Shown here piece after piece: positions 1-48,487 of a stretch of DNA of 48,487 nt; the stretch's first letter is position 1; each line of letters begins with the position of its first letter. This DNA is from Saprospiraceae bacterium (lineage in GTDB: Bacteria; Bacteroidota; Bacteroidia; Chitinophagales; Saprospiraceae). The stretch lies in NCBI GenBank assembly GCA_029263015.1, contig JAJCYI010000014.1, positions 1-48,487 on the forward strand, read 5' to 3'. Position numbers and translations under genes: made by a program. Under the pieces are notes generated by a model that was not told where the DNA came from, searched no databases, and was given only the letters and a program-made list of their open reading frames with translations.

Positions 1-119
1 CGTCATTTTTGAGTGAACTATTTTTTCGATAGACAAGGCAAAAAATCATTGCATAGCCCAGCTACGGAATTATTTTTTAACACAGTATATCGGAAAAAGA
101 GCTGCTCAAAAATGTGTCG
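1..119. repeat. Palindromic intergenic repeat, copy A
   Basis: The outer arms are self-complementary: the left arm contains CATTTTTGAG and later TTTTTTCGATA, and the right arm contains TATCGGAAAAAGAGC and CTCAAAAATG. At the exact centre (51-67) is the core GCATAGCCCAGCTACGG, flanked by AAAAAAT on the left and ATTTTTT on the right. The same core sits at the centre of three other palindromes in this window. The element lies just past the 3' end of the minus-strand gene ending at 148. It may extend left of the window. Confidence 0.7.
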
Positions 120-147
120 ATTATTTGGGTCAAGGTACTTAATAAAC

Positions 148-1035
148 TCAAAAAGAGAACCCGATGGATACTTGCAGCGAAAAGGTGCGGTCATCATCAT
201 TCCTCGTAATGAATTTGCCATTATCCTGGCTCACCAACGAGACATCAGCATTTTGTTTCGTGATGTCCATTAAGCCATAATTTAACCTGCCAGACACAAA
301 AAGCCCTCTGTTCAAATAAATAGAAATTCCAACGAATGTTCCAAAATCAAAGGTTTTGAACAAGTTGCCCCGATCTTCATCAAACTCATAATAAACGCCT
401 GCCGAACTTGGGATTTCTACCAAAGTGCCACTGCCGATCCGAACTGATTTGGGTGGGTTGGCAAAAACAGCCTCGCCCGGATCATCGTTTATGTAATTTC
501 CATCTATTTCGTAACTGATAGGGTCGGGGTCAGTACCAGCCCCATTAGCGGTTTTTCCGTTTGAATAAGACAATTCGCCAAAAACACTGGCTGACACTAA
601 AAAGCTAACATTAACGCCTGCATAGATTTCCAACCACTCTAATGGTTTGAAGTAACCCGAAACAGGAATGTCAAGATAGGAAGTAGTGGTATTTATTCTC
701 TGTTTGCGAGTGCCGGTAGTGGCAACTAAATTTCCAGTAGTGCTAGTTAAGTTAAGATAAGAGGGTCCCTCAAAATTGCGGCGTCCACCTTTCTGAATGA
801 AAACCAATTCACCTCGAAGACCCATTAGATCGGTCGCTTTCCAAGTGAAAATAGCACCAACGTGAAAGCCTTCGTTGCTGGTAAACTCTTCAAGTTCATT
901 GCCGTTGGCATCAGTTTCAGAGTCGCTTTTAAATGAATTGGAATTGAGGCCAGCTTTAAAACCATAACCAAATTCCTGAGCCATCAAGGAAGTGCCGAGG
1001 AAGATGAACAATAATATATGTAAGGTCTTTATCAT
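148..1035 (-). CDS. Outer-membrane beta-barrel protein (porin-family / PorT-like)
   Basis: A 295-residue protein with a signal peptide (MIKTLHILLF...SLMAQ), then FGYGFKAGLNSNSF, the usual opening strand of the small outer-membrane barrel domain found throughout Bacteroidota. Alternating hydrophobic and polar strands follow, and the protein ends in an aromatic residue (SLQVSIGFSF), typical of barrel insertion by the BAM machinery. I start it at the ATG at 1035 rather than the upstream in-frame ATG at 1074, because the 1035 start gives a clean signal peptide. It is monocistronic and divergent from asd. The substrate or role cannot be told from sequence; proteins of this type range from small porins to T9SS-associated barrels. 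Confidence 0.8.
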   Translation of the reverse strand: MIKTLHILLFIFLGTSLMAQEFGYGFKAGLNSNSFKSDSETDANGNELEEFTSNEGFHVGAIFTWKATDLMGLRGELVFIQKGGRRNFEGPSYLNLTSTTGNLVATTGTRKQRINTTTSYLDIPVSGYFKPLEWLEIYAGVNVSFLVSASVFGELSYSNGKTANGAGTDPDPISYEIDGNYINDDPGEAVFANPPKSVRIGSGTLVEIPSSAGVYYEFDEDRGNLFKTFDFGTFVGISIYLNRGLFVSGRLNYGLMDITKQNADVSLVSQDNGKFITRNDDDRTFSLQVSIGFSF

Positions 1036-1176
1036 TTTAGTTAGGAGTTTTTTTATAAAAAAAATCGGGCGCAAGATAAACCGTTTTTACGCAATAAAGG
1101 TAGGCTGGTTAGTGAGAATGGTTGGCCATGTTGTTCTATTAAAACAATTTTCCTGACGCTTTATTGACTCCCCATG

Positions 1177-1184
1177 TATCTTTG
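1177..1184 (+). promoter_or_regulatory. Promoter -7 element for asd
   Basis: TATCTTTG matches the Bacteroidota -7 consensus TAnnTTTG and is followed by GC. It lies about 45 bases before the asd ATG. The matching -33 TTTG is not clear at the expected spacing, so the call rests on the -7 box and position alone. Confidence 0.5.
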
Positions 1185-1229
1185 CAGGCTTCTTGAAAAC
1201 TGTTTAACACATAAGCAAAAGCACATAAA

Positions 1230-2246
1230 ATGAAAGTAGCAGTAGTAGGTGCCACCGGACTGGTTGGTACCGTTATGTTGAAAGTACTCGAAAAGCGGAA
1301 TTTCCCAGTAACAGAACTTATGCCAGTGGCTTCCCAGCGTTCAGTTGGCAAAGAGGTAACATTTAGAGGAAACACCTTTCAAGTGATTGGCTTGCAAGAT
1401 GCAGTGGATGCTTGTCCAGATGTGGCCATCTTTTCAGCCGGAGGTAGTGTGTCGCTGGCCTGGGCGCCCAAGTTTGCCAAGGTCGGCACGACTGTCATTG
1501 ACAATTCCTCAGCTTGGCGAATGGATCCAGGTAAAAAATTGATCGTTCCCGAAGTGAATGCTGATGCATTGGAGGAAAACGACAAAATCATCGCCAACCC
1601 CAACTGTTCGACCATACAGCTGGTGGCTGCCTTGAAACCTTTGCACAGTCGTTTCATCATAAAAAGGCTGGTGATTTCCACCTATCAATCCATTACAGGT
1701 ACTGGCGTAAAAGCCGTGCAACAATTCCATATAGAGCGGGACGGGAAAGTACCTTCCAAAGAAGAAATGGCCTATCACCACCCAATCAATGAAAATTGCA
1801 TTCCGCACTGCGATGTGTTTTTGGAAAATGACTACACCAAAGAGGAAATGAAATTGGTGCACGAAACCAAAAAAATATTCAACGATGACTCACTGGGAAT
1901 CACCGCCACTGCTGTACGAGTACCTGTTGACGGCGGGCACTCGGAGTCCGTCAACATTGAATTTGAAAAGCCTTTTGAGGTGGACGAAATAAAGAAGGAA
2001 TTGAATGAGGCGGTGGGGGTTGTCGTGCTGGATGATGTAGCCAACAACCAATATCCTATGCCCCTGATGGCCAAAAATAAAGACGAAGTATTTGTTGGCC
2101 GCATACGCAGGGACGAAAGTATCGAAAACGGCCTCAACCTGTGGATCGTCGCAGATAACCTTCGTAAGGGCGCTGCAACGAATGCAGTGCAGATTGCGGA
2201 GTATTTGGTGGAGAAGAAATGGATCGGAGAGGGGGTGATGGTATGA
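1230..2246 (+). CDS. asd: Aspartate-semialdehyde dehydrogenase
   Basis: A 338-residue enzyme of normal length. It reduces aspartyl phosphate to aspartate semialdehyde with NADPH in the cytoplasm, the branch point to lysine/diaminopimelate, threonine and methionine. The N-terminal Rossmann fold shows VGATGLVGTVMLKVL. The catalytic cysteine lies in ANPNCSTIQ (Cys126), and the later VPVDGGHSESV carries the active-site histidine. The ATG at 1230 directly begins the nucleotide-binding strand MKVAVVGATG, so the start is secure. It is preceded by a TATCTTTG promoter box and stands alone. The AT-rich restriction-modification island follows in the opposite direction. Confidence 0.95.
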   Translation: MKVAVVGATGLVGTVMLKVLEKRNFPVTELMPVASQRSVGKEVTFRGNTFQVIGLQDAVDACPDVAIFSAGGSVSLAWAPKFAKVGTTVIDNSSAWRMDPGKKLIVPEVNADALEENDKIIANPNCSTIQLVAALKPLHSRFIIKRLVISTYQSITGTGVKAVQQFHIERDGKVPSKEEMAYHHPINENCIPHCDVFLENDYTKEEMKLVHETKKIFNDDSLGITATAVRVPVDGGHSESVNIEFEKPFEVDEIKKELNEAVGVVVLDDVANNQYPMPLMAKNKDEVFVGRIRRDESIENGLNLWIVADNLRKGAATNAVQIAEYLVEKKWIGEGVMV

Positions 2247-2342
2247 TAAAATATCTTTTGAAGATATAACATATCGGGCCTTTTAGGGATTTGTGTTTAT
2301 TGGTCGAAACTTACTTTTTGTGATTTTTTAAATAAGATTTAT

Positions 2343-3038
2343 TCAAATTACATTTACCCAAAAATGAAATAACTCAATAGGCGTTTTTGAAATTCTTGCA
2401 TGAAGAGAATTACATTTTGACAAAATGGATTTATTTGATTCCAGCGAAGACAGTGCTTCATTCTCGTTCCATTCTAATTCAGTTGACTTTGCTTTTTCCT
2501 CATCAATCCAACTGTTGATCTTTTGATGCCAAAATGAAAAATCATTATTTTCCATAAATCCTACTATACATGCTTTTGCTAATTCTTTACCATGTTGTTC
2601 TCTTTTGAAACGACAAATACCACCAGTGTTGCCGGATACATATTGTTTATTATTCTTGTTATAGAGTCGTTTGCCTTCAATAGCAAAGATTCGTTCGCCT
2701 GTATGTTGTAAACAAATAGCCAAATCAATTTGTCGTCCCAAGCCTTTCTTCTTTTTTGGAGCAAACATTTCTTCTTGGTATTCATCATGGAATGATATTG
2801 CTCCACTCAAACTTGACCTTCCAATAATTCCCTGTAGCAATCGGGAAAAACTAAAATTATATTCTCTTTCTTGAATTGTAGTTTTTTGGTTTTTCAAATC
2901 AATTATCGAATTGCGGAAATCGTTATTAAACACCAACAAGCATTCCTCAGTTAATTTCACTAACATCTCAATCAACCTCGTTTTAGGGAGATCAGTAAAG
3001 GCAGGTTTAGAATTTGGGATATGTTGATTGCTTGTCAT
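2343..3038 (-). CDS. Putative PD-(D/E)XK restriction endonuclease
   Basis: A 231-residue protein without signal peptide or membrane segment. The centre reads GRQIDLAICL then IFAIEGKRL, giving Asp105, Glu121 and Lys123 spaced as in the PD-(D/E)XK nuclease core. It follows the methyltransferase gene by 12 bases on the same strand, so the two are almost certainly co-transcribed as a modification-restriction pair. Both are markedly more AT-rich than the flanking genes (in 3541-3600 I count 11 G/C of 60, against 29 of 60 in 1561-1620), which suggests horizontal acquisition. The nuclease call is inferred from the motif and context; the target site is unknown. Confidence 0.6.
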   Translation of the reverse strand: MTSNQHIPNSKPAFTDLPKTRLIEMLVKLTEECLLVFNNDFRNSIIDLKNQKTTIQEREYNFSFSRLLQGIIGRSSLSGAISFHDEYQEEMFAPKKKKGLGRQIDLAICLQHTGERIFAIEGKRLYNKNNKQYVSGNTGGICRFKREQHGKELAKACIVGFMENNDFSFWHQKINSWIDEEKAKSTELEWNENEALSSLESNKSILSKCNSLHARISKTPIELFHFWVNVI

Positions 3039-3050
3039 TTAAGGAAAACA

Positions 3051-5990
3051 TTAATGCCCTTCCTTGACTAAATCGGAAATTACCCAATCGGCATCTCGGA
3101 GTGCTATTGAATCAAGCCAGTATCGGAGTTGGTTTGGTTTAATGAAACAGACATAGTCTTTTTTATAAATTTTTAATATGCGAGAAAATCTTGCATGACC
3201 TTTATCAAGCGTCAATATTATTTGCAGCTTTTTTTCTGAAATTTCAGAGATGATATTATGCTTGCCTGTAAAAGTAATGTCAGGTTTATCGTCGTATCGG
3301 AAAGCAACGTACATAAAATTATTATTGTGGATGCTGCCTGCGTCGGCAAAACGGAATTTTAGATTTTTGTTTTGATAAATTACATTTAAGGCATTACAAA
3401 ATATAGAAGCATAATCTGTGAGATGATTTTTTAAGTTCTTTGAAGGTATTTGAAAAAATGCTTTACGTGATTCAGGTCGACGAATAAAATTTTGATAATG
3501 CTTTACAACATCATCAATAATAGCATCATCTATTTTACTAAGGTTTATTTTTTTATTAATTGGTTTATTAATTGGCAATTTTTTAATATCTTCTACAAGT
3601 AATACAGTATTTTTATAAATGAGTGTTTTAGGGCTTGTTGAAAAAATAAAAGCTCTATAAAGGTGGTTATTCGATTTTAAACTATTGAAAAGTTTATTAA
3701 TTAATTGTTCATCTTTTTTTGGAGCTGCAATGCCATAAATTCCATCTTTAAAACCAATATCAAAATTTGAGAAATAATGCATTGGGATAGAATGAATGTT
3801 TCCCACATTGAGCTTAATAACGATGTGGGGAGACTTATATATTCTCGTATCGCATATTTGAGAAAAACATTCAGCTTCTTCATTCTCAAAATCGAATCTT
3901 ACGACACCATTTTCAGTCAACCAGTTTGTTGGAAGAGTTGGCTTTCCAGAAATTTCTACACACATGTCCTCATCAGGGTCAGTACTCGCTCGATAGCCGA
4001 CTGAACTTGTCCAATCTTTATTGTCTTTTTCGATAAATTCAATTAAAGTTGGGTACAATTTCAATCTCTTTATTAAACCATATAATCTTCCTCCCCCTAA
4101 CAAATTACACTTCCAAACAAAGTCATCTTGCAAGGCCGCAACATAAGGTATCCAATGAAAATCATAAGTATCAATTTCAAAATAGCGCTTCAGGCTATTA
4201 GATGGTGTGCGCTTTATTACTAAGTGCAGAATATTTTTTGAGGGATTGGGTTGTTCTTTAGAAGCAAAGACAGCGAGCGTGTCTGGTTCTTTGTTTTCCC
4301 ATAACACATGGTTTCTTGCCAATAAAGTAAAATCTATAATTTGATGGACTCTATGTTTATTAAAGAAGCTTTTTCTAAAAGTATTCCCAGTAGAAGTATA
4401 AATAAAGGAGGACGATTTTAATAACAAGCATAGCAGCCCTTTTTCTTTAACTAGTTGCATTCCTACACTCAAGAAATACAAGGCTATTTGTTTCTGAGGA
4501 ATTTTTATATTAGAAATTTCTTTCCAATTTGGAAGGTTTTTGTGGGCTTGAACAAATGGAGGGTTTCCAATAACAAGATCAAATGTTGCCTTTCCTTTAT
4601 TATCTTTAAACCAATCAAAAAAATCAGCATGAACCAATTTATCTTTTAGTTCAGGAAAATGCAATTCTGAATATACCTCTGGTGGGGTAAGCATATCGCA
4701 AACAGCAAGACAAAGACTAAAGCGTGTCAATAATACTGCATTTTCATTGCTATCTATTCCTGTAATAGAATTGGATAAAATGCCCGTCAATTCTTTTGCA
4801 CCGGGCGCATCCCCTTTGTTATTCAATCTCCACCAATGGACAAGTCTTTTAAAAGCAAGTACCAAAAAAACGCCCGAACCACATGACGGATCGAGTACTT
4901 TATAATTGGTTTTATTTTTCCACGCGGTCAAAGGCATACTTTCATCTACCAAAAATGCGGCAAGATGGGGAGGAGTGTAAACCATGCCTTCTTCTTTTAC
5001 ACTTGTGTCAGTTGTGAAAAGTGCCTCATAAATACTGCTGACGACCTCCACAGGTAAGAAACGGAAAGAATATAAATCCCAAAGTGCTAATTGAGATTTT
5101 TCATCCATACTGGTTTTATAAAGCAAATTGACTAAATCCTTCGTTAGAACATTTTCAAGTTCCTTTTTTTCTTCTCCTTCCCATTCAAAAATTTGTCCAT
5201 TCAGATGGTCTTTTTTATTCAAATAATCAAAGACCTGAATAAATGTACCTTTTTCAAGAGATTCCTTGAAAGAGTTTGCTTGTGCAATTTTTTGAAAAAA
5301 ATCAGGCGGAAAAACTTGTTGCAATTTTCCGAATCGATCATATTCTTTTTTTTCCTCCAAAAAACGAATTAAGACACACTGAATTAGAAAGCGGTTCACC
5401 AATTCCTCTCGAAGTATTTTTGCCGTTAAAAACTTTTCCTGTACAGCTTTTAATTTAGCTAAGAGGGTTTTGTGTGCTGACTTATCGTGTCTGAAATGTT
5501 TTTCTTCTAAATGCCAGAACTCTCCTGAATCCAGTCTATAGGATGAAAATCGTTCTTGAATTTTTCCTGTAATTTCATGTGCTAATCCAATTAAATAGAC
5601 AGGGAAAAATTCGTCCCCATTTTGTTTTGGTTGGCAAGTTGTATTTATTATTCTTACTGCATCTTTGGAAAAAATAAAAGCAGCGGGTACTTCTGAACTC
5701 GACCAAATATTTTTTTGAATTTCACCTAAATCCTGATCTTTTGGGATAACACCTTTATCAGTAAAATCATAAATATAAACTTGTGGCTGAGAAGGGCGGT
5801 CATCAAAACGCCGAAAATAAACATAGTCAGCTTCTAAACGCTTGGCCTTTTCAAGTGCGAGCCATTCAGATATGGAGGAAAGGTCTTCAAAGTTAGGTTG
5901 GGATAGAGCACTGCTTGTTGAGCGGAGAAGTCCATTGGCATCATAGCCAAGCTTCTTTTTTGCCTGCTCAAACAAGGTATTGGTGCGCAT
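3051..5990 (-). CDS. N6-adenine class DNA methyltransferase of a restriction-modification system
   Basis: A 979-residue protein. The N-terminal half (1-300) is helical and unassigned. Residues 335-352 (GMVYTPPHLAAFLVDESM) form the motif X region seen in HsdM and type IIG enzymes, motif I is VLDPSCGSG (365-373), and motif IV is GNPPF (475-479). This order fits gamma-class adenine-N6 methylation. The C-terminal 400 residues contain no further obvious catalytic motif and may serve in target recognition. The length and single-chain build resemble Eco57I-type or other type II/IIG methylases more than a classical HsdM with a separate HsdS. It is first in a two-gene operon with the putative nuclease 12 bases downstream. 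A TATCTTTG box lies about 25 bases upstream. The AT-rich composition suggests transfer. Confidence 0.85.
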   Translation of the reverse strand: MRTNTLFEQAKKKLGYDANGLLRSTSSALSQPNFEDLSSISEWLALEKAKRLEADYVYFRRFDDRPSQPQVYIYDFTDKGVIPKDQDLGEIQKNIWSSSEVPAAFIFSKDAVRIINTTCQPKQNGDEFFPVYLIGLAHEITGKIQERFSSYRLDSGEFWHLEEKHFRHDKSAHKTLLAKLKAVQEKFLTAKILREELVNRFLIQCVLIRFLEEKKEYDRFGKLQQVFPPDFFQKIAQANSFKESLEKGTFIQVFDYLNKKDHLNGQIFEWEGEEKKELENVLTKDLVNLLYKTSMDEKSQLALWDLYSFRFLPVEVVSSIYEALFTTDTSVKEEGMVYTPPHLAAFLVDESMPLTAWKNKTNYKVLDPSCGSGVFLVLAFKRLVHWWRLNNKGDAPGAKELTGILSNSITGIDSNENAVLLTRFSLCLAVCDMLTPPEVYSELHFPELKDKLVHADFFDWFKDNKGKATFDLVIGNPPFVQAHKNLPNWKEISNIKIPQKQIALYFLSVGMQLVKEKGLLCLLLKSSSFIYTSTGNTFRKSFFNKHRVHQIIDFTLLARNHVLWENKEPDTLAVFASKEQPNPSKNILHLVIKRTPSNSLKRYFEIDTYDFHWIPYVAALQDDFVWKCNLLGGGRLYGLIKRLKLYPTLIEFIEKDNKDWTSSVGYRASTDPDEDMCVEISGKPTLPTNWLTENGVVRFDFENEEAECFSQICDTRIYKSPHIVIKLNVGNIHSIPMHYFSNFDIGFKDGIYGIAAPKKDEQLINKLFNSLKSNNHLYRAFIFSTSPKTLIYKNTVLLVEDIKKLPINKPINKKINLSKIDDAIIDDVVKHYQNFIRRPESRKAFFQIPSKNLKNHLTDYASIFCNALNVIYQNKNLKFRFADAGSIHNNNFMYVAFRYDDKPDITFTGKHNIISEISEKKLQIILTLDKGHARFSRILKIYKKDYVCFIKPNQLRYWLDSIALRDADWVISDLVKEGH

Positions 5991-6014
5991 CAGAGTAGTT
6001 TAATGGATTTGATA

Positions 6015-6022
6015 CAAAGATA
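6015..6022 (-). promoter_or_regulatory. Promoter -7 element of the restriction-modification operon
   Basis: Read on the minus strand the sequence is TATCTTTG, a full match to TAnnTTTG, 25 bases before the methyltransferase ATG. No strong -33 TTTG is visible at the usual distance. The upstream flank holds the small dyad TGTTTGAAACA, which could be part of a control site but is too short to call. Confidence 0.5.
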
Positions 6023-6079
6023 TAAACTGTTTGAAACAATATGTTTAAGCAGATACAATTATTTTTAAATAGCCTAAAA

Positions 6080-8827: not shown

Positions 8828-8876
8828 TGATCAAAGTTTTAGTTATGCATGCCGTCACTTGGGAAAAAAGTAGGCT

Positions 8877-8884
8877 CAAAAATA
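8877..8884 (-). promoter_or_regulatory. Promoter -7 element of the type B T9SS protein gene
   Basis: The minus-strand sequence TATTTTTG fits TAnnTTTG and lies 50 bases before the ATG at 8827. The -33 element is degenerate. Confidence 0.4.
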
Positions 8885-8994
8885 ACGGTTTGCTATCGGT
8901 AAAAGTACTGTTTTGCTGATTGAAAGCTGACAGATAGACGTTATAGCGCTGTTAAAGGGTTGGTATTTTGGAAGTATAGTAATGAAGTTGTTTG

Positions 8995-9153
8995 GGAACG
9001 ATGAAATAATAACGTTGTCAACGTTTGCTGATTCTTTTGTCTGTTCTGAACTTTAAAAAATAGTCAGGTAGCCCTGCTATGCTTCTATTTTTTAAAACTC
9101 AGAATAACCAAAATAACCTACCCAAACTTAACGTGTTATTATTTCATCGTTCC
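8995..9153. repeat. Palindromic intergenic repeat, copy B
   Basis: Perfect 19-base terminal inverted repeats: GGAACGATGAAATAATAAC at 8995-9013 and its exact complement at 9135-9153. Inner complementary segments TTTAAAAAATAG (about 9052-9063) and CTATTTTTTAAA flank a central core at 9068-9082. On the minus strand the core reads GCATAGCAGGGCTAC, the same as at the centre of copies A, C and D. The terminal arms are unlike those of the other copies. The right arm ends 14-15 bases before the -33 box of pssA. Together with the two promoters this accounts for the long gap 8828-9220. Confidence 0.8.
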
Positions 9154-9998: not shown

Positions 9999-10256
9999 AT
10001 GAAATTCAAAGCTGAAATAGACATAATGCCACATAAGGAATTGCTCGATCCACAGGGCAAGACCGTTGCAAATAACATGCAGAACCTCCACGTAACGGGT
10101 GTCGAGGACATTCGCATCGGCAAACATATTTCCATGATCTTGGATGCCGAAAGTGAAGAGGAAGCAACTGCCACAGTGGACATGGCCTGTAAAAAATTGC
10201 TGGCCAACCTCATCATGGAAACGTATACTTTTGATATTGAAACGTTGAGTGTTTGA
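9999..10256 (+). CDS. purS: Phosphoribosylformylglycinamidine synthase subunit PurS
   Basis: An 85-residue cytoplasmic protein of the usual PurS size. PurS dimers bridge PurL and PurQ in the complex that converts FGAR to FGAM in purine synthesis. Typical family features are the opening strand MKFKAEIDIMPHKELLDPQG, the central VANNMQNLHVTGVEDIRIGK, and the C-terminal CKKLLANLIMETYTFDIE. No purL or purQ is adjacent, so the complex genes are split in this genome. The last codons run directly into the low-complexity region 10246-10360. The start at 9999 is the only sensible one. Confidence 0.92.
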   Translation: MKFKAEIDIMPHKELLDPQGKTVANNMQNLHVTGVEDIRIGKHISMILDAESEEEATATVDMACKKLLANLIMETYTFDIETLSV

Positions 10257-10360
10257 GTGTTTGAGAGCTTGAGTTCTTAAGTTTCTGAGAGTTTGAGCAA
10301 GGCTCTTTCTCAGAAACTCAGAAACTCAAAAACTCAAAAACTCAAAAACTCAGAAACTCA
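10246..10360. repeat. Low-complexity inverted and tandem repeat between purS and rsmI
   Basis: The left part is made of GAGTGTTTGAG / GAGTTTCTGAGAG-type words, and the right part (10312-10359) is six tandem 8-base units, AGAAACTC or AAAAACTC. The two halves are complementary. The strongest hairpin is 10281-10317, where GTTTCTGAG pairs with CTCAGAAAC. It could act as a transcription or RNA-stability element between the two genes. The 24 codons upstream of rsmI in the same frame are merely this repeat being read through. Confidence 0.7.
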
Positions 10361-17885: not shown

Positions 17886-17889
17886 TTTT

Positions 17890-17941
17890 TCCCCCCTTCC
17901 AAAAGGGTGGGAATTAAATTCCCACCCTTTTGGAAGGGGGG
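17890..17941. terminator. Bidirectional terminator between gldH and the M1 aminopeptidase
   Basis: A perfect long hairpin: CCCCCCTTCCAAAAGGGTGG... pairs with ...CCACCCTTTTGGAAGGGGGG around the small loop AATTAAATT. It sits between convergent gene ends (17885 and 17947), so it can stop transcription from both sides, although T-runs are short. Confidence 0.8.
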
Positions 17942-17946
17942 AAATA

Positions 17947-30450: not shown

Positions 30451-30474
30451 TGGCTCGCCTTTTTATCATTTACT

Positions 30475-30635
30475 AGACTTGTTCGTAAATAAGATTTTAG
30501 GATATGAGAATTAGGTTTTTTAGTCTGACGGCCTATTTTTATGAGCGCATAGCCGTAGCTACGGGCGAGAAAAAATAGAACGACAGACGGAAAAAGATTT
30601 TTTCATATTCAAAATTCTTATTTGCGAACAAGTCT
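30475..30635. repeat. Palindromic intergenic repeat, copy C
   Basis: Terminal arms AGACTTGTTCGTAAATAAGA (left) and the complement of AGACTTGTTCGCAAATAAGA (right) match at 19 of 20 positions. A further matching segment reads TTTTTAGTCTGACGG / GACAGACGGAAAAAG. The centre (30547-30564) is GCATAGCCGTAGCTACGG. The inner stem here is CTATTTTT on the left and AAAAAATAG on the right, the reverse of copies A, B and D, but still self-complementary. It explains most of the gap 30338-30756. Confidence 0.8.
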
Positions 30636-30756
30636 ACAATGTTTAATTTCAAATCAAATAAGTGAGAAGAACTTATTGGGCTTGAAATGGTTTGAAAATT
30701 GTTTGCAAGGTTTCGTAACGAATGAAAACCAAAATCATTTAATCAAATTATCCCTC

Positions 30757-39311: not shown

Positions 39312-39336
39312 CGCCGCTTAATGAGGTAACCAATGG

Positions 39337-39360
39337 AAGAGGGAACAAAAGTTCCCTCTT
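39337..39360 (+). promoter_or_regulatory. Terminator-like hairpin in the rimP leader
   Basis: A perfect 10-base stem, AAGAGGGAAC / GTTCCCTCTT, has loop AAAA and is followed by TTAATTTAT. It lies between the promoter and the TTG start of rimP, about 14 bases from the start codon. It could be an attenuator of the operon or could affect access of ribosomes to the TTG start. Confidence 0.65.
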
Positions 39361-39373
39361 TTAATTTATAGAC

Positions 39374-39865: not shown

Positions 39866-39918
39866 CTTGGTAAAGGATAGGATTTCAATTAAATCTATTG
39901 TTTACTAAATTCATTTGG

Positions 39919-39970
39919 CTTGCCCACAAATAAGAGTATTGCTTATTCTCAAACCTTATTTAAGAACAAG
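39919..39970. repeat. Imperfect dyad between rimP and nusA
   Basis: CTTGCCCACAAATAAG (39919-39934) and CTTATTTAAGAACAAG (39955-39970) are complementary at 12 of 16 positions. The second arm read in reverse, CTTGTTCTTAAATAAG, closely matches the end of palindromic repeat C (CTTGTTCGTAAATAAG). It may be a shortened relative lacking the core. Confidence 0.5.
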
Positions 39971-39993
39971 TTTAATATTCATCATTAATAAAA

Positions 39994-41232
39994 ATGATAA
40001 GTTTAGTTGATACTTTTTCGGATTTTAAATCCAGCAAGAACATTGACCGGCCAACAATGGTGCGGGTGTTAGAAGATGTATTTCGTACCCTTATAAAGAA
40101 GAAATTTGGCTCCGACGATAATTTCAATGTGATTGTAAACACTCAACAAGGTGACCTTGAGTTATGGCGGGTACGTGAAATTGTGCCAGATGGCGAGGTG
40201 ACTGACGACCGCAGTCAAATTTCTGTTTCAGAAGCGATTTCCATTGATGACAGTTATGAAATCGGGGAGGAGTGTTATGAACAATTGTTCCTGGAAGACT
40301 TTGGACGAAGGGCCATCCAAGCTGCACGGCAGACTCTTATTTCCAGGATCATGGAATTGGAGAAAGATGATATATTCAAGCAATATGTTGAGCGCGTAGG
40401 CGACTTGGTGACAGGGGAAGTCGGCCAGATAATAAAGCGGGAATTCCTTATCGTGGATGATGCTACTGGACACGAATTGTTAATGCCAAAAGGTGAAACC
40501 ATCAGGGGGGATTTTTTCCGAAAAGGGGATATAGTGAGGGGCATCATCAAGCGGGTAGAAATGAAAAACAATACCCCAGTGGTAATCATGTCACGCACCG
40601 ATAATGAGTTCTTGGAAAAATTGATGGAGAAGGAAGTGCCCGAAATTGAAGATGGCATCATCGCCATTAAACGCATTGTAAGGTTGCCAGGCGAAAGGGC
40701 GAAAGTAGCCGTTGAATCTTACGACGAGAGGGTTGATCCGGTTGGTGCTTGCGTTGGCATGAAAGGTTCGCGTATCCACGGGATTGTCCGCGAATTGCGG
40801 AATGAGAATATCGACATTATCAATTTCACTACCAATGAAAGCCTATTCATCCAACGTTCCCTGACCCCTGCAAAGGTGTCTACCATTGAACTGGATGCTG
40901 ACAAAAAACGGGCTTCAGTTTATCTTGAACCTGACCAGGTATCATTAGCCATTGGAAAAGGTGGTACTAATATCAAACTGGCCAGTAAGTTGACCGAATA
41001 TGAGATAGATGTATATCGCAATACTGATGAGCAAGAGATCGACGATGTTGATCTGGAAGAATTTTCTGATGAAATTGAAGCTTGGATCATCACCGAACTC
41101 AAACGGATCGGATGTGATACAGCAAAGAGTGTTTTGGATCTCAATAAAGATGAACTATTGCGAAGGACTGAATTGGAAGAAGAAACAATTGAGGAGTTAT
41201 TGAAAGTCCTTTCGGCGGAATTTGACGATTAG
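39994..41232 (+). CDS. nusA: Transcription termination/antitermination factor NusA
   Basis: A 412-residue cytoplasmic protein that binds RNA polymerase and modulates pausing, termination and antitermination. It has the N-terminal polymerase-binding domain (MISLVDTFSDFKSSKNIDR), an S1 domain (VGDLVTGEVGQIIKREFLIV), KH1 (VDPVGACVGMKGSRIHGIV) and KH2 (VSLAIGKGGTNIKLASKL). An acidic C-terminus carries a short helix-hairpin segment (VLDLNKDELLRRTELEEETI). Length is typical for the phylum. It sits between rimP and infB. The 128-base gap after rimP holds an imperfect dyad. Confidence 0.96.
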   Translation: MISLVDTFSDFKSSKNIDRPTMVRVLEDVFRTLIKKKFGSDDNFNVIVNTQQGDLELWRVREIVPDGEVTDDRSQISVSEAISIDDSYEIGEECYEQLFLEDFGRRAIQAARQTLISRIMELEKDDIFKQYVERVGDLVTGEVGQIIKREFLIVDDATGHELLMPKGETIRGDFFRKGDIVRGIIKRVEMKNNTPVVIMSRTDNEFLEKLMEKEVPEIEDGIIAIKRIVRLPGERAKVAVESYDERVDPVGACVGMKGSRIHGIVRELRNENIDIINFTTNESLFIQRSLTPAKVSTIELDADKKRASVYLEPDQVSLAIGKGGTNIKLASKLTEYEIDVYRNTDEQEIDDVDLEEFSDEIEAWIITELKRIGCDTAKSVLDLNKDELLRRTELEEETIEELLKVLSAEFDD

Positions 41233-41319
41233 AATCAATTAAAAATTTAGAGGCGGGTCTTTGATCCATCAATACTTTTTCAATATCGACCGTATTTTTA
41301 TTTTATTATATTTTTTTTA

Positions 41320-44250
41320 ATGAGTAAACGCTTAGTTAAGGTAGCGCAAGAATTAAACGTCGGGACTTCCACAGTCGTGGAGTTCCTGAACGACAATGGG
41401 TTTGAAATTGACAACAAACCTACGTCAAAGATTACGGACGAAATGGAAAATATGCTGGTGCAGCAATATTCCAAGTCCATTGCCATCAAAGAACAAGCAG
41501 ACTCTATGATGATTGGCCTTCGTCCGTCCATAAAGCAGGAATCTTCTGCAAAAGAAGAGGATGTATCCGTATTGGATCCACCACCACTTCCCCCTCCTCC
41601 CCCGCCACCGCCACCTGTGGAAAAAATTCCAGTTCCAGTTCCAGTAATACCTGAGGAAGAACCGAAACCTGAGCCTGTTATGGAAGTAAAAGAGGAAAAA
41701 CCAAAGGGCAAGGAGACCAAATTAGGATTAAAAATTAAAGGAAAAATAGAGCTGGACAAAAAAGGTATGCCCGTCAAAGAGAAGAAGTCAAAAGAAGTTG
41801 AAGTCAAAGAAGAAGTGCCCGCCGAAGTACCTGTTCCTGATGAAGCCATCAGCGATGCTGAGCCTCCGCAAGAAGTAGCTGAACCCAAAAAAGAAGAATC
41901 CAAAAAAGCTGAACCCAAAAAAGAGGGCGAAGTTGCTCCAACTGAAAAACCCGCGCAATCAGACAGTAAAGCCGATGTTGCTACTGACGAAATCGCAGAG
42001 AACAAAATGGTCCGTGCCGCAACTCCTGAGCTTAGGGGGTTGAAGATTCTAGGTAAAATTGATATTCATAAGAAAAAACCGGTTAAGAAAAAAGAGAAGG
42101 AACAGAAAGGAAAACCGGGCGGGGTTAAAAAGACAGAACAGTCGCGTGAAAAAGCTCAAGGAAAAGAAGATGCCTCAAAAGGAAAACCAGTAGCTTCATC
42201 CGATAACTCTGACCGTAACAAGCGGAGGCGCACACGCCGCAAAGTTACCGTGGACAACAGAAGTCAGGGAGATAGTAGTGGAAGAAGAGGAGGAGCAGCG
42301 AGCAGTGGCAATCGTCGGAGAGGAGGCAAAGAGGTCTCGCAAAAAGAAGTTGGCGAACAGATCAAAAAAACCATGGCCAGCCTTTCTGGAGCTGGAAGGA
42401 AAAAACGCCAAAAAATGCGCCGCGATACTCGCGAGCGTCTCCGCGAAAAGCAGGAGTTGATGGAAATGGAGGGCACTACTGACAAGTTGTTGGTTACAGA
42501 GTTTGTGACAGTTCAGGAATTGGCGAATATGATGGACATCGCAGCAGCAGAAGTCATTACTACCTGCATGGGCCTCGGTGTATTTGTTTCCATCAACCAA
42601 CGACTGGATGCTGAATTGATAGAACTTGTCGCAAGCGAATACGATCATGAAGTCGAATTTATCAGCATTGAAGAACAAACAGATAGCGAGCTCGAAGAAG
42701 AGGATGCCGTAGAAGATATGGAGCCAAGGGCGCCTATCGTTACGGTGATGGGGCACGTTGACCACGGTAAAACTTCATTGCTCGATTATATAAGGGAAGC
42801 AAGTGTGGCCTCGGGTGAAGCTGGTGGGATTACCCAGCACATCGGAGCTTATGAAGTAGAAGTGAATGGTAAAAAAATCACCTTCCTTGATACACCTGGT
42901 CACGAAGCATTTACTGCCATGCGTGCCCGGGGTACGAAGGTGACCGATATAGCTATCATTGTTGTGGCTGCTGACGACAACGTGATGCCACAAACCAAAG
43001 AAGCGATCAGCCATGCCCAAGCGGCAGAAGTACCAATGGTATTTGCCATCAACAAAATTGACAAGGATGGAGCTGATCCCAATAGGATCAAACAAGAATT
43101 GGCCTCCATGAACATTCTTCTTGAAGATTGGGGCGGCAAGTTCTTATCTCATGACATCTCTGCCAAGACAGGTGAGGGGGTCATTGAACTGCTGGAAAAA
43201 ATACAGTTGGTCTCAGAACTTGGAGATTTCAAAGCCAACCCAGATCGTTCTGGCCAAGGTACGGTTCTCGAAGCCTCTTTGGACAAAGGCAAAGGTTATG
43301 TCACAAATATACTTGTACAAAGGGGGACCTTGAAAATAGGAGACGCTATGGTAGCTGGAGAATTTTCCGGAAAGGTAAAAGCCATGTTCAATGAACGGGC
43401 CGAACGGGTAAAGGAAGTAGGGCCTTCTGCTCCGGTTTCCATACTTGGCCTTAGTGGTGCTCCACAAGCTGGCGAACGATTCAAAATTATGGAAAGTGAA
43501 TCTGAAGCACGCCAATTAGCCAACAAACGGGCTCAAATCAACCGGGAACAGACCAACCGGGCCACCAAGCGGATCAGCCTCGATGAAATTGGCCGTCGTC
43601 TTGCCTTGGGTACATTTAAGGAACTGAATCTCATCGTTAAAGGTGATGTGGATGGTTCTGTGGAAGCCCTCTCAGATTCATTGATTAAACTGTCGCTTGA
43701 AAGAGTCCAAGTGAATGTTATTCACCGCGCAGTCGGACAGATCGCTGAGTCAGATATTTTGCTTGCTTCAGCTTCCGATGCCATAATCATTGGTTTTCAA
43801 GTAAGGCCATCCTTGGGAGCAAGAAAATTAGCCGAGCGAGAAGGTGTCGAGATAAAGATGTACTCCATCATTTACGAAGTCATCGAAGAAATTAAATTGG
43901 CCATTGAAGGCTTGCTCGAGCCGACCAAGGAAGAGAAGATTATTTGCAATGTGGAAATACAGGAGGTTTACAAAATCAGCCGCGTTGGTACCGTTGCTGG
44001 GTGTAAAGTGCAAGATGGCAAAATCCATCGGAATAGCAAGATCAGGATTATCCGTGAAGGTATTGTGATCTATCCTACTAAGGAGGGCGTCTCTGCCGAA
44101 CTTGCTTCTTTGAAACGTTTCAAAGAGGACGCAAAAGAAGTGCAGAAAGGAATGGAATGTGGTTTGACCATCAAAAATTTCAACGACCTGAAAGCAGGCG
44201 ATATAGTCGAAGGATATGAAATCGTAGAAGTGAAACAAAAATACGGTTGA
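41320..44250 (+). CDS. infB: Translation initiation factor IF-2
   Basis: A 976-residue GTPase that brings initiator tRNA to the 30S subunit. It begins with an IF2N domain ([20 protein letters not shown]). A long charged linker (75-390) follows, including a run of nine prolines at 91-99 and many Lys/Glu repeats, then the second IF2N. The GTPase motifs are GHVDHGKT (478-485), [12 protein letters not shown] and SAKTGEG, followed by the C-terminal beta-barrels and the fMet-tRNA-binding domain. The linker is variable in this family and is not expected to be needed for catalysis. A strong terminator ends the operon. Confidence 0.96.
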
Positions 44251-44273
44251 TAAGATATAGGTCAGTTGTTCTG

Positions 44274-44315
44274 AAAAAAACCTCCTGTAGTTTAATACTT
44301 ACAGGAGGTTTTTTT
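44274..44315 (+). terminator. Terminator of the rimP-nusA-infB operon
   Basis: AAAAAAACCTCCTGTA pairs with TACAGGAGGTTTTTTT around a 10-base loop, ending in a run of T. It lies 24 bases past the infB stop. Confidence 0.9.
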
Positions 44316-44330
44316 ATTTTGCGCAATGAG

Positions 44331-44369
44331 GATCGTTCAAATAATGACGAACTTATTATTTGAACGATC
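44331..44369. promoter_or_regulatory. Perfect 15-base dyad upstream of the TIM-barrel isomerase gene
   Basis: GATCGTTCAAATAAT (44331-44345) and its exact complement ATTATTTGAACGATC (44355-44369) are separated by 9 bases. It lies 18 bases before the ATG at 44388 and just after the infB terminator. It could be an operator or a leader hairpin. Confidence 0.55.
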
Positions 44370-44387
44370 TTATATAAAAACAAACCC

Positions 44388-45308
44388 ATGCAAAGAAGAT
44401 CATTCTTGAAGAATGGATTGACCACATCCACCGCACTTGCGTTTGGCAGTGGGTCAACTATTGCAAAGAACACACTTCCTATGTCCAACAAGCACGAATT
44501 CAAACTAAAATATGCGCCTCATCTTGGCATGTTCGAAAAAAGCGCTGGGAGCGATCCAATAGATCAACTGAATTTCATGGCCGATAATGGATTTGAGGCT
44601 TTTGAGGACAATGGCATGAAAGGCAGAGAACTTTCCCTTCAGGAAAAAATGGCTGCTACCATGGCCAGCCGTGGAATACAAATGGGCGTTTTTGTCGCGC
44701 ATGAAATCTATTGGCGAGAGCCGAACCTCGCTAGCGGGAAGGTAGATTGGCGTGAAGAATTCCTGAACGATATTAAGTCTTCGGTAGAAGTTGCCAAGCG
44801 GGTAAATGCCAACTGGATGACTGTTGTGCCTGGGCATGTTGATTTTCGGCAGGATATGGGCTACCAGACTGCCAACGTCGTGGAATCGTTGAAACAGGCC
44901 TGTGGAATCCTCGAACCTCATAATCTCGTCATGGTACTTGAGCCTCTGAATTTCAGAGATCACCCTGGCCTATTTCTCACAAAATCCGCTCAGGCATATT
45001 CGATCTGTAAAGCGGTGAACAGTCCCGCTTGCAAAATCCTATTCGATATTTACCATCAGCAAATCCAGGAAGGCAACTTGATCCCAAATATTGAAAAATC
45101 ATGGAATGAAATCGCCTATTTCCAAGTAGGCGATAATCCTGGTCGAAATGAACCTACCTCTGGTGAAATCAACTATAAAAATGTTTTTAAATACATTCAT
45201 GAGAATGGTTTCAACGGGGTAGTTGGCATGGAGCATGGCAATTCCAAAAAAGGAAAGGAAGGAGAAATGGCAGTGATTAATGCTTATTTGGAAGTGGATG
45301 GGTTTTGA
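44388..45308 (+). CDS. Exported hydroxypyruvate-isomerase-like TIM-barrel protein
   Basis: A 306-residue protein. The N-terminus MQRRSFLKNGLTTSTALAFG is a twin-arginine signal, so the folded protein is probably exported. The body matches the Hyi branch of the xylose-isomerase-like TIM barrels: NFMADNGFEAFEDNGMKGR, the metal-ligand glutamate in MVLEPLNFRDHPG, ILFDIYHQQIQEGNLIPNI and the closing glutamate in VVGMEHGNSKKGKEGE. Hydroxypyruvate isomerase or a related sugar epimerase activity is plausible but unproven. It has its own region with a perfect dyad 18 bases upstream. Its start follows the infB terminator. Confidence 0.82.
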   Translation: MQRRSFLKNGLTTSTALAFGSGSTIAKNTLPMSNKHEFKLKYAPHLGMFEKSAGSDPIDQLNFMADNGFEAFEDNGMKGRELSLQEKMAATMASRGIQMGVFVAHEIYWREPNLASGKVDWREEFLNDIKSSVEVAKRVNANWMTVVPGHVDFRQDMGYQTANVVESLKQACGILEPHNLVMVLEPLNFRDHPGLFLTKSAQAYSICKAVNSPACKILFDIYHQQIQEGNLIPNIEKSWNEIAYFQVGDNPGRNEPTSGEINYKNVFKYIHENGFNGVVGMEHGNSKKGKEGEMAVINAYLEVDGF

Positions 45309-45312
45309 GAAA

Positions 45313-45393
45313 TCGTGATTGGTGACCCGTGATTGATTAAGGAGCTGAATTTCCTTAGCACTAGTCACTAATCACGAATCTCCTGTCACTGAA
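45313..45393. repeat. Low-complexity inverted repeat between convergent genes
   Basis: The left words CGTGATTGGTGAC and CGTGATTGATTAAGG face the right words GTCACTAATCACG, forming a hairpin between the isomerase stop (45308) and the hydrolase stop (45386). The right part (45368-45393) resembles 9971-9995. It could serve as a bidirectional terminator. Confidence 0.55.
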
Positions 45394-46231
45394 GCTTCTC
45401 TTTCAAAAAAGCCAACACCAATGCATTGGCCTCCTGTGCTGCAGTTTCATTATATCGGGGGCTGCTCGGATTGGCAAAAGCATGTGCTGCCTCAAACCAG
45501 TGAACATCAAGGTTTTTGCCAGTAGCTTTTGACAATGCCTCAAATTTGCCGATCACACTTTCATTGATCCAGTCATCCTTTTTGGCAAAGATGCCCAGCA
45601 CGTCGGCCTTGAGAGGAACTAGTTCATTTGCTTTCTCAACGGGCATTCCATAATACATTACACATCCTGCCCCTCTGTCTGTAGATAGGATACTGCTCCG
45701 CAATGACCATCCACCGCCAAAACACCAACCAACTGTTGCCACCTTGGCGTCAGCTCCAGCTATGGCTAATGCGCCGTTGATAATGGCTTCACAACGTTCT
45801 GGTTTTACAGCTTGCATGAACTTCCCAGCTTCATCAGGATTGTCTGTCACGTTACCATCGTATAGGTCGAGTGCCATGACGTTGACATCCGCAAGTTCTC
45901 CGAACAAGCGTTCGGCTTCCTGCTTGATGTGATCGTTCAAGCCCCACCATTCGTGGATCACTATCAAATATTTGTCGGAAGGGGCTTCGGTGACGAGGGT
46001 ATATGCTTTTCCAGTTTTGCCGTCAGGAGTAGAAAACTCTTTCATCTCGCCTTTGCCCTCAAAGCCAATATCTGCTGGCTTTTCGTGCATATCTTTAAAG
46101 TCCTCATCTTTCGTGAACTTCGCCATGCTGTCACTTTCTTCAGAAGTAGCGTCGTTGGATGAATTGTTGGAACAATTGGTGAAACTGAATATGGCCAAAA
46201 AAGCCAATGGAAGTAATAGTTTGTTCGACAT
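45386..46231 (-). CDS. Dienelactone-hydrolase-family lipoprotein
   Basis: A 281-residue protein with lipoprotein signal MSNKLLLPLAFLAIFSFTNC (Cys20) and a serine/asparagine-rich linker. The catalytic triad of the family is visible: Cys170 in GWCFGGGWSL, Asp220 in AKKDDWINE and His250 in WFEAAHAFANP; the supporting glutamate is in VIHEWWGLNDHI. The cysteine nucleophile sets it apart from serine esterases. The true substrate is unknown; many family members act on esters unrelated to dienelactone. The stop overlaps a low-complexity repeat, and another such stretch precedes the start. Confidence 0.85.
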   Translation of the reverse strand: MSNKLLLPLAFLAIFSFTNCSNNSSNDATSEESDSMAKFTKDEDFKDMHEKPADIGFEGKGEMKEFSTPDGKTGKAYTLVTEAPSDKYLIVIHEWWGLNDHIKQEAERLFGELADVNVMALDLYDGNVTDNPDEAGKFMQAVKPERCEAIINGALAIAGADAKVATVGWCFGGGWSLRSSILSTDRGAGCVMYYGMPVEKANELVPLKADVLGIFAKKDDWINESVIGKFEALSKATGKNLDVHWFEAAHAFANPSSPRYNETAAQEANALVLAFLKEKLQ

Positions 46232-46300
46232 GATGTTAGATTTAGTGAATAGTCCAGTTAGTGATTAGTTCTTAGTGAATGGTGATTAGGGGCTGAAGAG
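46232..46300. repeat. Low-complexity GTGATTAGTGAAT words between two minus-strand genes
   Basis: Repeated TTAGTGAATAG, TTAGTGATTAG and TTAGTGAATGG units fill the gap between the hydrolase start and the methyltransferase stop. They are the complementary strand of the TCACTAATCAC words seen at 9971 and 45368. Confidence 0.5.
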
Positions 46301-46320
46301 CATGGTATTTCGCAGCCAGC

Positions 46321-47049
46321 CTATTTTTCAGCGGTAACGATGTATTGATAATCCAATGCACAATCATCGGAGGTAATGTTGCTGAAACCAGCTTGGTAAA
46401 GTTCACCTTCTACTTTGTACAATTCCATTCTGGCAGTTTGCTTTGGCATTTGAATGGGAATCCGTTTTTTCTTGAAATCAACAATGATAAGTTGGCCGCC
46501 TTCCGGCAAAACATCCCAAAGATGTTTCAAATAATCGACCCGATTCCTAATATATATAAAGGTATTGACGATAAGGATGATATCTGCTTCGCCGGGTTTG
46601 AGTTTGGAATCGGTGGGTGTCACGAGTCGGGTTTCTAGGCGGTTCTGGTATTCGGGTTTCAATTCGATTAGCTTCACGCTATCCATAAAAGCGATGAAAC
46701 GTGGGTCGAGTTCAAGCGCTATGACCTTTTTTGCATGTTGCGCTAGGCGACGGGAGAAGAACCCCGAACCAGCACCCAGATCGGCAACGACCTTATTGCT
46801 GAGGTCGCCCATTTTGTCAATAACTTGACTCGGCCTTTGCCAAATATCCCTGCCTGGCGGGTCGTATTGATCCAACAGTTTTTCGAGGGTAGCAGAGCCA
46901 TTTTCCTTGGTAGGTGATTGGTTTTTGGAAGTGTCGGCAGAAGGGGGTTCCGTATCCGTATGCGTTACGGAAGGGTCATTGCTGCATCCCATAAATAAAA
47001 CTAAGTAGAACACAATGAGGCTATATGTCAGCGAGTGGTGGATTTTCAT
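46321..47049 (-). CDS. SAM-type methyltransferase with a lipoprotein signal
   Basis: A 242-residue protein. It opens MKIHHSLTYSLIVFYLVLFM followed by GCSNDPS, a good lipoprotein signal (Cys22), then a Ser/Thr/Pro-rich linker. The catalytic-looking domain has VADLGAGSGFFSRRLAQ (motif I), VIALELDPRFIAF (motif II acidic residue) and EADIILIVNTFIYI (motif IV region), a class I SAM fold. An exported SAM-dependent enzyme is odd, because SAM is cytoplasmic. The longer start at 47142 would hide the signal sequence, but the hydrophobic stretch would remain. The start at 47049 is preferred. The substrate is unknown. Confidence 0.78.
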   Translation of the reverse strand: MKIHHSLTYSLIVFYLVLFMGCSNDPSVTHTDTEPPSADTSKNQSPTKENGSATLEKLLDQYDPPGRDIWQRPSQVIDKMGDLSNKVVADLGAGSGFFSRRLAQHAKKVIALELDPRFIAFMDSVKLIELKPEYQNRLETRLVTPTDSKLKPGEADIILIVNTFIYIRNRVDYLKHLWDVLPEGGQLIIVDFKKKRIPIQMPKQTARMELYKVEGELYQAGFSNITSDDCALDYQYIVTAEK

Positions 47050-47226
47050 TTTGATTGTTTGCATTTTTAATTTTGCCAGCGGGCAAATCGGCGCTATTCC
47101 TGTTCTCTTCTTATCGGGCGCTAAGATAAATGAAAATCCCATTCGTTTGATTGGAGGCTTGCAGATGTTTTTTGCATTTTATTTGTCCAAAAGTGGCGCT
47201 TCTCGAAGAAGCATCGCTTTTTAAAG

Positions 47227-48315
47227 TCACTCCTCCTCCATTAGCACACGGTTTTCGTTCATCACTTTAACTTGATGGGAAATGGATTCTTCGTGAACGG
47301 CACGCAGAACAATCTCGACGAAGCGTTTGCTGAGGTCTTTTTCTTTGCCCAATTTTACAGAATGTTCAAGAATTTCATTCCACCTGCTTGGCTGTAGAAT
47401 GGCAATATTGTTTTTCTTTTTGTATTCGCCAATTTGCTCTGCCATCTTCATGCGTTTCCCAAACAAGTCTATTAGATGCAAGTCTATTTCATCAATCTGA
47501 TGACGAAGGAAATCAATCGTTTTCAGGAAAGCAGCATTCCCCGAAGTCTGTTCCCTCACGACCAATTCCTTTATCATAACCCCAAAACGGTGCGGGGTGA
47601 TTTGTTGTGCAGCATCACTCCAGGCATTGTCTGGAGTTGGGTGTACTTCGGTCATCAGGCCATCGTAATTGAGATCGAGGGCTCGCTGTGCGACACCCTG
47701 TAATAAATCCCTGCGGCCACAAATATGGCTGTTGTCGCAGATGATCTGCAATTTCGGGAATTGCCGTTTCAACTCGATAGGCAACTGCCAGAGCGGCAGA
47801 TTGCGGTATTTGGTTTCACCATGAGAAGAAAAGCCTCGGTGGATAGCGCCGATGCGGGTAATGCCAGCTTTGTATATCCGTTCTATGGCGCCGATCCAAA
47901 GTTTCAAGTCAGCATTTACAGGGTTTTTTATTAAAACAGGTACGTCCAACCCTTGAAGTGCATCAGCAACCTCTTGTACCGAAAAAGGGTTCACCGTGGT
48001 GCGGGCACCTATCCAGAATACGTCGATGCCGTGTTTCATTGCATCAAAAACATGTTGGGTATTGGCAACCTCGGTAGTTACGCTCATGCCCGTTTCTTGC
48101 TTTACCTTTTGCAGCCATTTCAGGCCAGGTGCTCCTACTCCTTCAAATGCACCTGGGCGGGTTCGAGGTTTCCAGATGCCTGCTCGAAACAAGTCTATAC
48201 CAACCTCTTTTAGGCCACGGGCGGTCTCCAATACTTGCTCCTCCGTTTCAGCACTACATGGCCCAGCGATGAGGATGGGGCGTTCTTTTTTTTCAAAAAC
48301 GGGTAGAAATTGCAT
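47227..48315 (-). CDS. Bifunctional 3-deoxy-7-phosphoheptulonate synthase / chorismate mutase
   Basis: A 362-residue cytoplasmic enzyme. Residues 1-260 are the KDPS-like (AroAIbeta) DAHP synthase: RPILIAGPCSAETEEQV, FRAGIWKPRTRPGAFEG, FWIGARTTVNPFSVQEV, PVLIKNPVNADLKLWIGAIE and GLMTEVHPTPDNAWSDA. The C-terminal 90 residues are an AroQ-type chorismate mutase (LRHQIDEIDLHLIDLFGKRM, IGEYKKKNNIAILQPSRW). It catalyses the first step of the shikimate pathway and the step to prephenate, with the mutase probably also acting as feedback sensor. This domain order is normal in Bacteroidota. The ATG at 48315 is used; the longer frame from 48369 starts inside the palindromic repeat. Confidence 0.93.
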   Translation of the reverse strand: MQFLPVFEKKERPILIAGPCSAETEEQVLETARGLKEVGIDLFRAGIWKPRTRPGAFEGVGAPGLKWLQKVKQETGMSVTTEVANTQHVFDAMKHGIDVFWIGARTTVNPFSVQEVADALQGLDVPVLIKNPVNADLKLWIGAIERIYKAGITRIGAIHRGFSSHGETKYRNLPLWQLPIELKRQFPKLQIICDNSHICGRRDLLQGVAQRALDLNYDGLMTEVHPTPDNAWSDAAQQITPHRFGVMIKELVVREQTSGNAAFLKTIDFLRHQIDEIDLHLIDLFGKRMKMAEQIGEYKKKNNIAILQPSRWNEILEHSVKLGKEKDLSKRFVEIVLRAVHEESISHQVKVMNENRVLMEEE

Positions 48316-48334
48316 GGTGTATGATTTTAAGTGC

Positions 48335-48487
48335 CACGTAGTGATAAATTCGGTAAAATTTTTAAGCAAGATTTTTTCGATAGTTTTCCTTAAAAAATAC
48401 TTGCATAGCTGTGTCCTACGGAAGTATTTTTTAAGAAAAAATAGCGGAAAAAGATGTTTTAAAAATTACCGAATTAATCAGTACGTG
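48335..48487. repeat. Palindromic intergenic repeat, copy D
   Basis: The left arm CACGTAGTGATAAATTCGGT and right arm ending AAATTACCGAATTAATCAGT, then ACGTG, are complementary with few mismatches. Inside, TTTTTTCGATAG faces ATAGCGGAAAAAG, and TTAAAAAATACTT faces AAGTATTTTTTAA. The centre (48403-48421) is GCATAGCTGTGTCCTACGG. It sits 20 bases upstream of the DAHP synthase ATG and runs to the window edge. Confidence 0.75.

Follow-up and report, generated by a model that had tools for sequence, protein, structure and literature searches.

What kind of mobile element keeps its centre constant while its ends change? This question is raised by four long quasi-palindromes, A to D, on contig JAJCYI010000014.1 of a Saprospiraceae bacterium (assembly GCA_029263015.1; 6.95 Mb in 245 contigs), a complete contig (C14) of 48,487 nucleotides that is referred to below as the window. 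Miniature inverted-repeat transposable elements (MITEs) are usually identified from their ends, the middles being dispensable. In the present elements it is the middle that distant Bacteroidota have conserved, and the ends differ, even in the length of the target duplication. The elements are probably MITEs of about 160 bp, in which exchangeable, transposase-specific ends are combined with one conserved strand-polar hairpin that would aid their spread.

The four sites share a GCATAGC..GCTACGG centre and carry unrelated, self-complementary arms, as the original prediction had stated. The pattern GCATAGC-N1..8-CTACGG occurs three times in the window and not once in 100 shuffles, and B (minus strand), C and D fold with z-scores of -10.4, -12.2 and -9.3, respectively, against 100 dinucleotide shuffles. 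Element A reaches a z of only -2.8 by the same measure, since the contig ends within its left arm. As first placed, A was too short on the right; the boundaries of A, C and D are given in corrected form in the table. The swapped inner arms of C, T-rich on the left and A-rich on the right, proved real and were seen again in other families; in its own genome the subfamily of C includes loci L028, L062, L066 and L067. The flanks of B read TTG and TTA, at best a decayed 3-bp duplication. A and D lie at opposite ends of the contig, and other contigs of the same genome often start or stop within copies. Both are cut because the assembly breaks within the repeat, which explains the breaks of draft assemblies such as this one at element sites.

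Table. Positions in the window of the four elements, their cores and the flanks of C; R1 is the covariance model described in the text.
Feature	Position	Strand	Ends or core sequence	R1 match	Remarks
Element A	1 (cut)-139	+	ends TAAGTACCTTGAC	8-111, 95.6 bits	left part lost at contig end; TA at 140-141; complete copies of its subfamily: L065, L094
Core of A	51-67	+	GCATAGCCCAGCTACGG		pattern match
Element B	8995-9153	-	ends GGAACGATG	9126-9022, 36.5 bits	
Core of B	9068-9082	-	GCATAGCAGGGCTAC		variant
Element C	30476-30634	+	ends GACTTGTTCGTAAATAAG	63.1 bits	
Core of C	30547-30564	+	GCATAGCCGTAGCTACGG		pattern match
TA flanking C	left 30474-30475, right 30635-30636				target-site duplication
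Element D	48330-48487 (cut)	+	ends AGTGCCACGTAGTG	68.3 bits	right part lost at contig end; TA at 48328-48329; complete copy of its subfamily: L089
Core of D	48403-48421	+	GCATAGCTGTGTCCTACGG		pattern match

The genome as a whole contains 101 exact cores, versus three with the reversed pattern. Of 50 family representatives, 45 went into model R1; the other five had a nested insert or were truncated. The covariance-model scan of the genome that the original prediction had proposed found at least 150 copies, far beyond the four of the window (all 150 scored candidates pass, out of 4426). B, C and D are absent from this list of matches, for which 150 of the 4426 candidates were scored, though they match R1 in the window.

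Related elements are found in the Saprospiraceae, the Flavobacteriales and the Bacteroidales. A core match is present in 49 of 120 relatives, only some of which are clearly above the control pattern (38 cores in G028, 27 in G068, 20 in G058, 17 in G073, 12 in G042 and 10 in G010). The named genome contigs contain at least 111 stretches with the core, and one search of these loci took in 100 of the 111 (all except L234, L238 and L263-L271). Where titles were listed, 79 of the 80 stretches are from Bacteroidota, among them Saprospiraceae metagenome-assembled genomes, Aquimarina, Flavobacterium, Sinomicrobium, Arenibacter, Seonamhaeicola, Marinifilum and others; the single other stretch lies on a Bacillota contig and its arms are unpaired (score 6). 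A phylum-wide sample of 296 genomes (own genome included), strictly filtered and limited to 13 candidates in each, gave a match in at least 10, and fuller searches with 150 candidates scored each gave 36 matches in G312, 50 in G218, 15 in G340 and 8 in G316. Long pairing arms (score of at least 15) flank 164 of 191 core sites. The remaining 27 score 12 or less and include a few real, lopsided copies (L064 and L107 in the own genome and probably L059, L158 and L160). Nearly the same pattern was scored in viral contigs as a control for chance: only one of 120 sites reached an arm score of 14 (it scored 17), and the core in viral contigs is almost only chance. Two blastn queries gave no match in plasmids.

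Two further observations were made among these sequences. The GC-rich genome G293, of the same phylum, has loci (L464, L471) of the same architecture (AAGGC, GCGTAGC-loop-GCTACGG, AACG), with ends like AGTGCTGCRTCA and two weak model matches. In L077 and other own-genome copies, as well as in L085, L095 and L185, a GC-rich palindrome of short length (CCTGCCTACCGGCAGGCAGG or a variant of it) lies at differing positions, much as a second mobile repeat nested in the elements would.

The ends divide the elements into two classes of target-site duplication, TA and 3 bp (mostly TNA). End motifs, 19 in number and picked after the end list was known, are carried by 118 of 155 elements. In the TA class (AGTAG, AGTACCT, AGTGCCAC, GACTTGTT, GGGTTGTT) 27 of 28 elements are flanked by TA at either end and a 3-bp repeat is absent; such a TA may also be the tip of the inverted repeat. 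The 3-bp class comprises the families GTAAAA, GTAAAG, GTGAAG, GAGACTG, GAGCATG, GAGCCTG, GAAGTTG, TACCA, TACGA and GGAGCG, and a direct repeat of that length, mostly TTA, TAA, TCA or TGA, is present in 78 of its 88 elements. It exceeds the number in shuffled flanks in TACGA, the largest family (43 of 45 versus 18.7), and in TACCA (13 of 19 versus 5.2), and is also clear in GAAGTTG. Elements with GACCTT ends have TA in one of two cases and a 3-bp repeat in neither. Within the own genome, subfamilies have common ends and target-site duplications. The outermost ends of A to D are unrelated because one member each of four subfamilies was compared, and the suggestion that the elements are no MITEs did not hold: each of the four subfamilies has its own ends, and some ends match IS630 or ISAzo13 elements of the same genome.

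Transposase genes with ends like those of own elements were found in the own genome for some families only, at L392 and L394 (IS630) and at L396 (ISAzo13). The ends of a further own-genome transposase, L409 (IS5 type), match elements of the relatives G042 and G068. The better end of each of these four gives a best match of 16-18 over 20 nt, where the null reaches 13-15 at most. For L392 the weaker end, with a score of 14, stays inside its null of 15. A TA duplication would be expected for IS630, and TNA for some elements of the IS5 type. The ends of a DDE_3 transposase of G316 (TAATACCATTTAGA) are like element ends in other genomes and unlike the inspected elements of G316 itself. An IS630 of G218 (eight copies, four inspected) was dismissed as a partner, its ends being unlike element ends. 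At L394 (2767-3237) a Y1-like open reading frame (ORF) adjoins an IS630 element with ends resembling those of D; a Y1 match at about this place of the contig is weak (21.6 bits, below the cut-off).

The elements are about 160 bp long, and their ends are paired in 168 of 175 cases. The ends comprise 75 distinct 8-mers; the number of true families is smaller, as some of the 8-mers are one end read in two registers. Inside these ends lies a module of about 100 nt, TTTTTTC .. AAGGC .. GCATAGC-loop-GCTACGG .. AACG .. GGAAAAAG, which is alignable across the set, with its blocks at near-fixed spacing; AAGGC is often present, not always. Core variants change together with their pairing partner (GCATAGC/GCTATGG in G312, AATAGC/GCTATT in G316, GCGTAGC/GCTACGG in G293). 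RNAalifold gives 27 pairs, 23 of which have changes on both sides, and the other four lie in the core that is fixed by the search pattern, where invariance is uninformative. Paired cells amount to 89.0% versus 66.0% after shuffling, and the covariation score, of a kind that is inflated by shared ancestry, is 0.583 versus 0.174 for shuffled and at most 0.268 for slid alignments. Conserved pairing without conserved sequence, the central claim of the original prediction, is thus borne out by the 23 compensated pairs and by covariation above both controls. No element matched an Rfam model above its cut-off; the long stems drew scores from plant microRNA models, all below their cut-offs, and these were set aside.

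The module folds on one strand. Mismatches on the core strand, summed for 50 families, are 270 G-U versus 98 A-C, with 161 and 65 in the outer arms and 84 and 5 in the motif region. In the outer arms a G-U excess is found in 39 families, a deficit in five and equal numbers in six. In 49 of the 50 families it is the core strand that has the lower predicted RNA energy, by 15.0 kcal/mol on average, and DNA energy parameters again favour it in 49. The polarity suggests that a folded RNA or a single DNA strand is what matters, and the predicted bias is compatible with either.

It appears that similar modules can be joined to different ends. In fourteen pairs of end groups, drawn from a handful of families, a module similarity of 72% or more goes together with an end similarity that does not exceed the 90th percentile of the shuffled control. 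The pair L185 and L227 has a module similarity of 85% and an end similarity of 0.38, both arms switching, by eye, at 32-34 nt from the core. With modules up to 85% alike between unrelated ends, module and ends look exchangeable. Over all 2775 pairs the similarities of module and ends are weakly correlated (rho 0.26) and mean end similarity is slightly raised (0.48 versus 0.44 shuffled), and therefore gradual divergence plays a part too.

With respect to genes, ORFs of at least 450 nt, called by a mechanical rule, contain one of 153 elements, the count covering elements at sufficient distance from the locus end (15 lay too close). A simple longest-ORF rule placed ORFs at up to 700 nt on either side of 93 elements; of these, 28 are in a tandem sense setting, 22 in tandem antisense, 25 between convergent and 18 between divergent ORFs. 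Among recent copies (11 clusters with 102 of 205 copies) one-sided transitions gave 53 G-U and 42 A-C, next to 107 other breaks. The ratio of G-U to A-C differs between recent and between-family comparisons (Fisher 0.0016; outer arms alone 0.009), and therefore the fold of a single copy seems to be maintained weakly or not at all once it has inserted, whereas that of the lasting lineages is. Our reading is that selection acts mainly on the spread of the element, not on a host function.

Two other repeats of the window may be mentioned. A perfect inverted repeat of 28 bp around a loop of 1 nt (17888-17944) lies between two convergent ORFs and is possibly a two-way terminator, and an imperfect inverted repeat of 56 nt (10246-10360) is built of TGAGTTT-like units.

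In the mechanism that we propose, the outer 30-45 nt or so of each arm would be the terminal inverted repeats, used by the DDE transposase of the given family; the TA-class ends would be served by enzymes of the IS630/Tc1-mariner type and the 3-bp class by those of the ISAzo13/IS5 type. The inner hairpin of about 100 nt, common to families with unrelated ends, would fold on one strand. Ends and module may have been swapped by recombination, or by arm-to-arm copying, via the conserved T/A tracts. The module would be retained in a folded, single-stranded form, RNA being the most likely, and the fold would improve spread or make the host tolerate insertions, whichever transposase acts. Candidate steps to be aided are the joining of ends, escape from nucleases and insertions rendered harmless as RNA. 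A bolder version, which we advance tentatively and with less than even confidence, makes the hairpin module itself the unit of selection, a strand-specific fold that parasitises unrelated transposase systems via end exchange across much of the Bacteroidota. If the hairpin drives spread, it would be a general cis-acting help to transposition or host tolerance that no single transposase explains, and the many natural families are ready variants for testing its role.

Several results weigh against this proposal. TA is its own reverse complement, so that a TA duplication is indistinguishable from the tip of an inverted repeat, and shuffled flanks give nearly the same count. The element-rich genome G028 has no match to PF13358, PF01609 or PF07592, and PF13358 is likewise absent from the element-rich genomes G312, G340, G277, G073, G042 and G062. 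The joined flanks of C, the one site for which this was done, have no bridging match in 13 other members of the genus. The families are related by descent, so the G-U excess is partly non-independent, and the innermost stem is without bias (25 G-U versus 28 A-C). No replication-sense preference was seen in G312 (19 of 36 on the leading strand, the origin being a guess based on 20 skew samples; the skew of G218 was too noisy for such a count). Neither is there a preference in orientation relative to genes (28 sense versus 22 antisense), which an RNA acting in host mRNAs might show. Finally, 31 two-sided changes in recent copies keep a Watson-Crick pair and argue against full neutrality; these may reflect single copies under selection, arm correction, or clusters that mix subfamilies. 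As to the missing transposases, MITEs often outlast them, and the same may hold for these genomes.

The alternatives should be seen against this background. An ordinary MITE superfamily could descend from a single ancestor, its ends drifting with the transposases and its centre kept for no special reason, with pairing arising from mutual correction of the inverted repeats. The arm length, constant at 72-74 nt in 54 of the 75 end groups, fits such a history, as do the correlation and raised end similarity noted above, the existence of intermediate ends (TAAGTAGG, TAAGTACC) and the 31 two-sided changes. Arm correction, however, gives Watson-Crick pairs and no strand preference, in contrast to the excess of G-U over A-C and the better fold of the core strand in nearly all families; moreover, the switch between unrelated ends at matching points of both arms, next to modules that are up to 85% alike, looks abrupt. 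We consider this explanation rather unlikely, although it is the most serious of the competitors. A hairpin with a regulatory or stabilising function for the host, carried by MITEs by chance, is clearly less probable. Covariation and strand polarity are typical of structured RNA, and 152 of the 153 scored insertions lie outside long ORFs. On the other hand, the lack of orientation bias, the slight preference for fold-keeping mutations in recent copies (53 versus 42) and the absence of any element above an Rfam cut-off speak against a host RNA.

The link to RAYT (REP-associated tyrosine transposase, of the Y1 type) that the original prediction had suggested can be largely dismissed. Movement as single-stranded hairpin DNA by such an enzyme, in the manner of repetitive extragenic palindromic (REP) sequences and bacterial interspersed mosaic elements (BIMEs), would agree with a strand-polar, intergenic, high-copy hairpin, and Y1 was found in eight of nine element-bearing genomes. 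It was also found in five of seven genomes without the exact core, however, and G316 has elements and no Y1. In addition, some ends match DDE elements, and 3-bp target duplications are present, which to our knowledge Y1 enzymes do not make. Such an origin is therefore highly improbable, and MITEs with exchangeable ends and a conserved hairpin remain the preferred reading.

In the literature searched (open-licence papers only) no description of the present family was recognised. The elements are short and multi-copy, lack a transposase gene, and have family-wide terminal inverted repeats, a duplication of fixed length and, in some families, a matching autonomous element, all of which are characteristic of MITEs. 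RUP, Correia and Nezha are bacterial MITEs derived from IS630/Tc1-mariner. Like the present elements, MITEs of this origin measure 100-200 bp, carry no transposase gene, have ends that match a resident IS630, a terminal TA and many intergenic copies; they have one conserved set of ends, however, whereas here the interior is conserved, the ends vary and some families have 3-bp duplications. RUP and Nezha are named in passages of PMC3733652.

REP sequences and BIMEs with their RAYT are also high-copy intergenic palindromes (PMC3733652; see also PMC2817692). By the abstract of PMC3733652 they are 20-40 bp long and linked to Y1, whereas the present elements are about 160 bp, have DDE-type duplications and show no Y1 link, and no REP-type GTAG or CGTC tag was found at one end among the listed element ends. 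Flavo-1 (RF01705) resembles our elements in being a repeated structured hairpin of Bacteroidota, as described in PMC2864571, PMC9723704 and PMC9029176, and it is reported to match transcribed regions in both sense and antisense (PMC9723704). Identity with Flavo-1 was rejected, the best score on an element being 23.3 bits at a cut-off of 42, with no match above that cut-off anywhere in the window. With 150 candidates scored in each genome, Flavo-1 has 143 matches in G073 (e.g. L444-L455), where it behaves as a dispersed repeat, and none in G000, G028, G068, G042, G027 and G058. Twelve Flavo-1 loci gave one R1 match, at a different position, and Flavo-1 is, judged by these model matches, a separate repeat. 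MITECca01 of Cardinium, as portrayed in part of PMC9769881, is likewise a MITE of the Bacteroidota that is paired with a resident insertion sequence; it differs from the present elements in its length of about 240 bp, its derivation from the IS982 family and its occurrence in one lineage.

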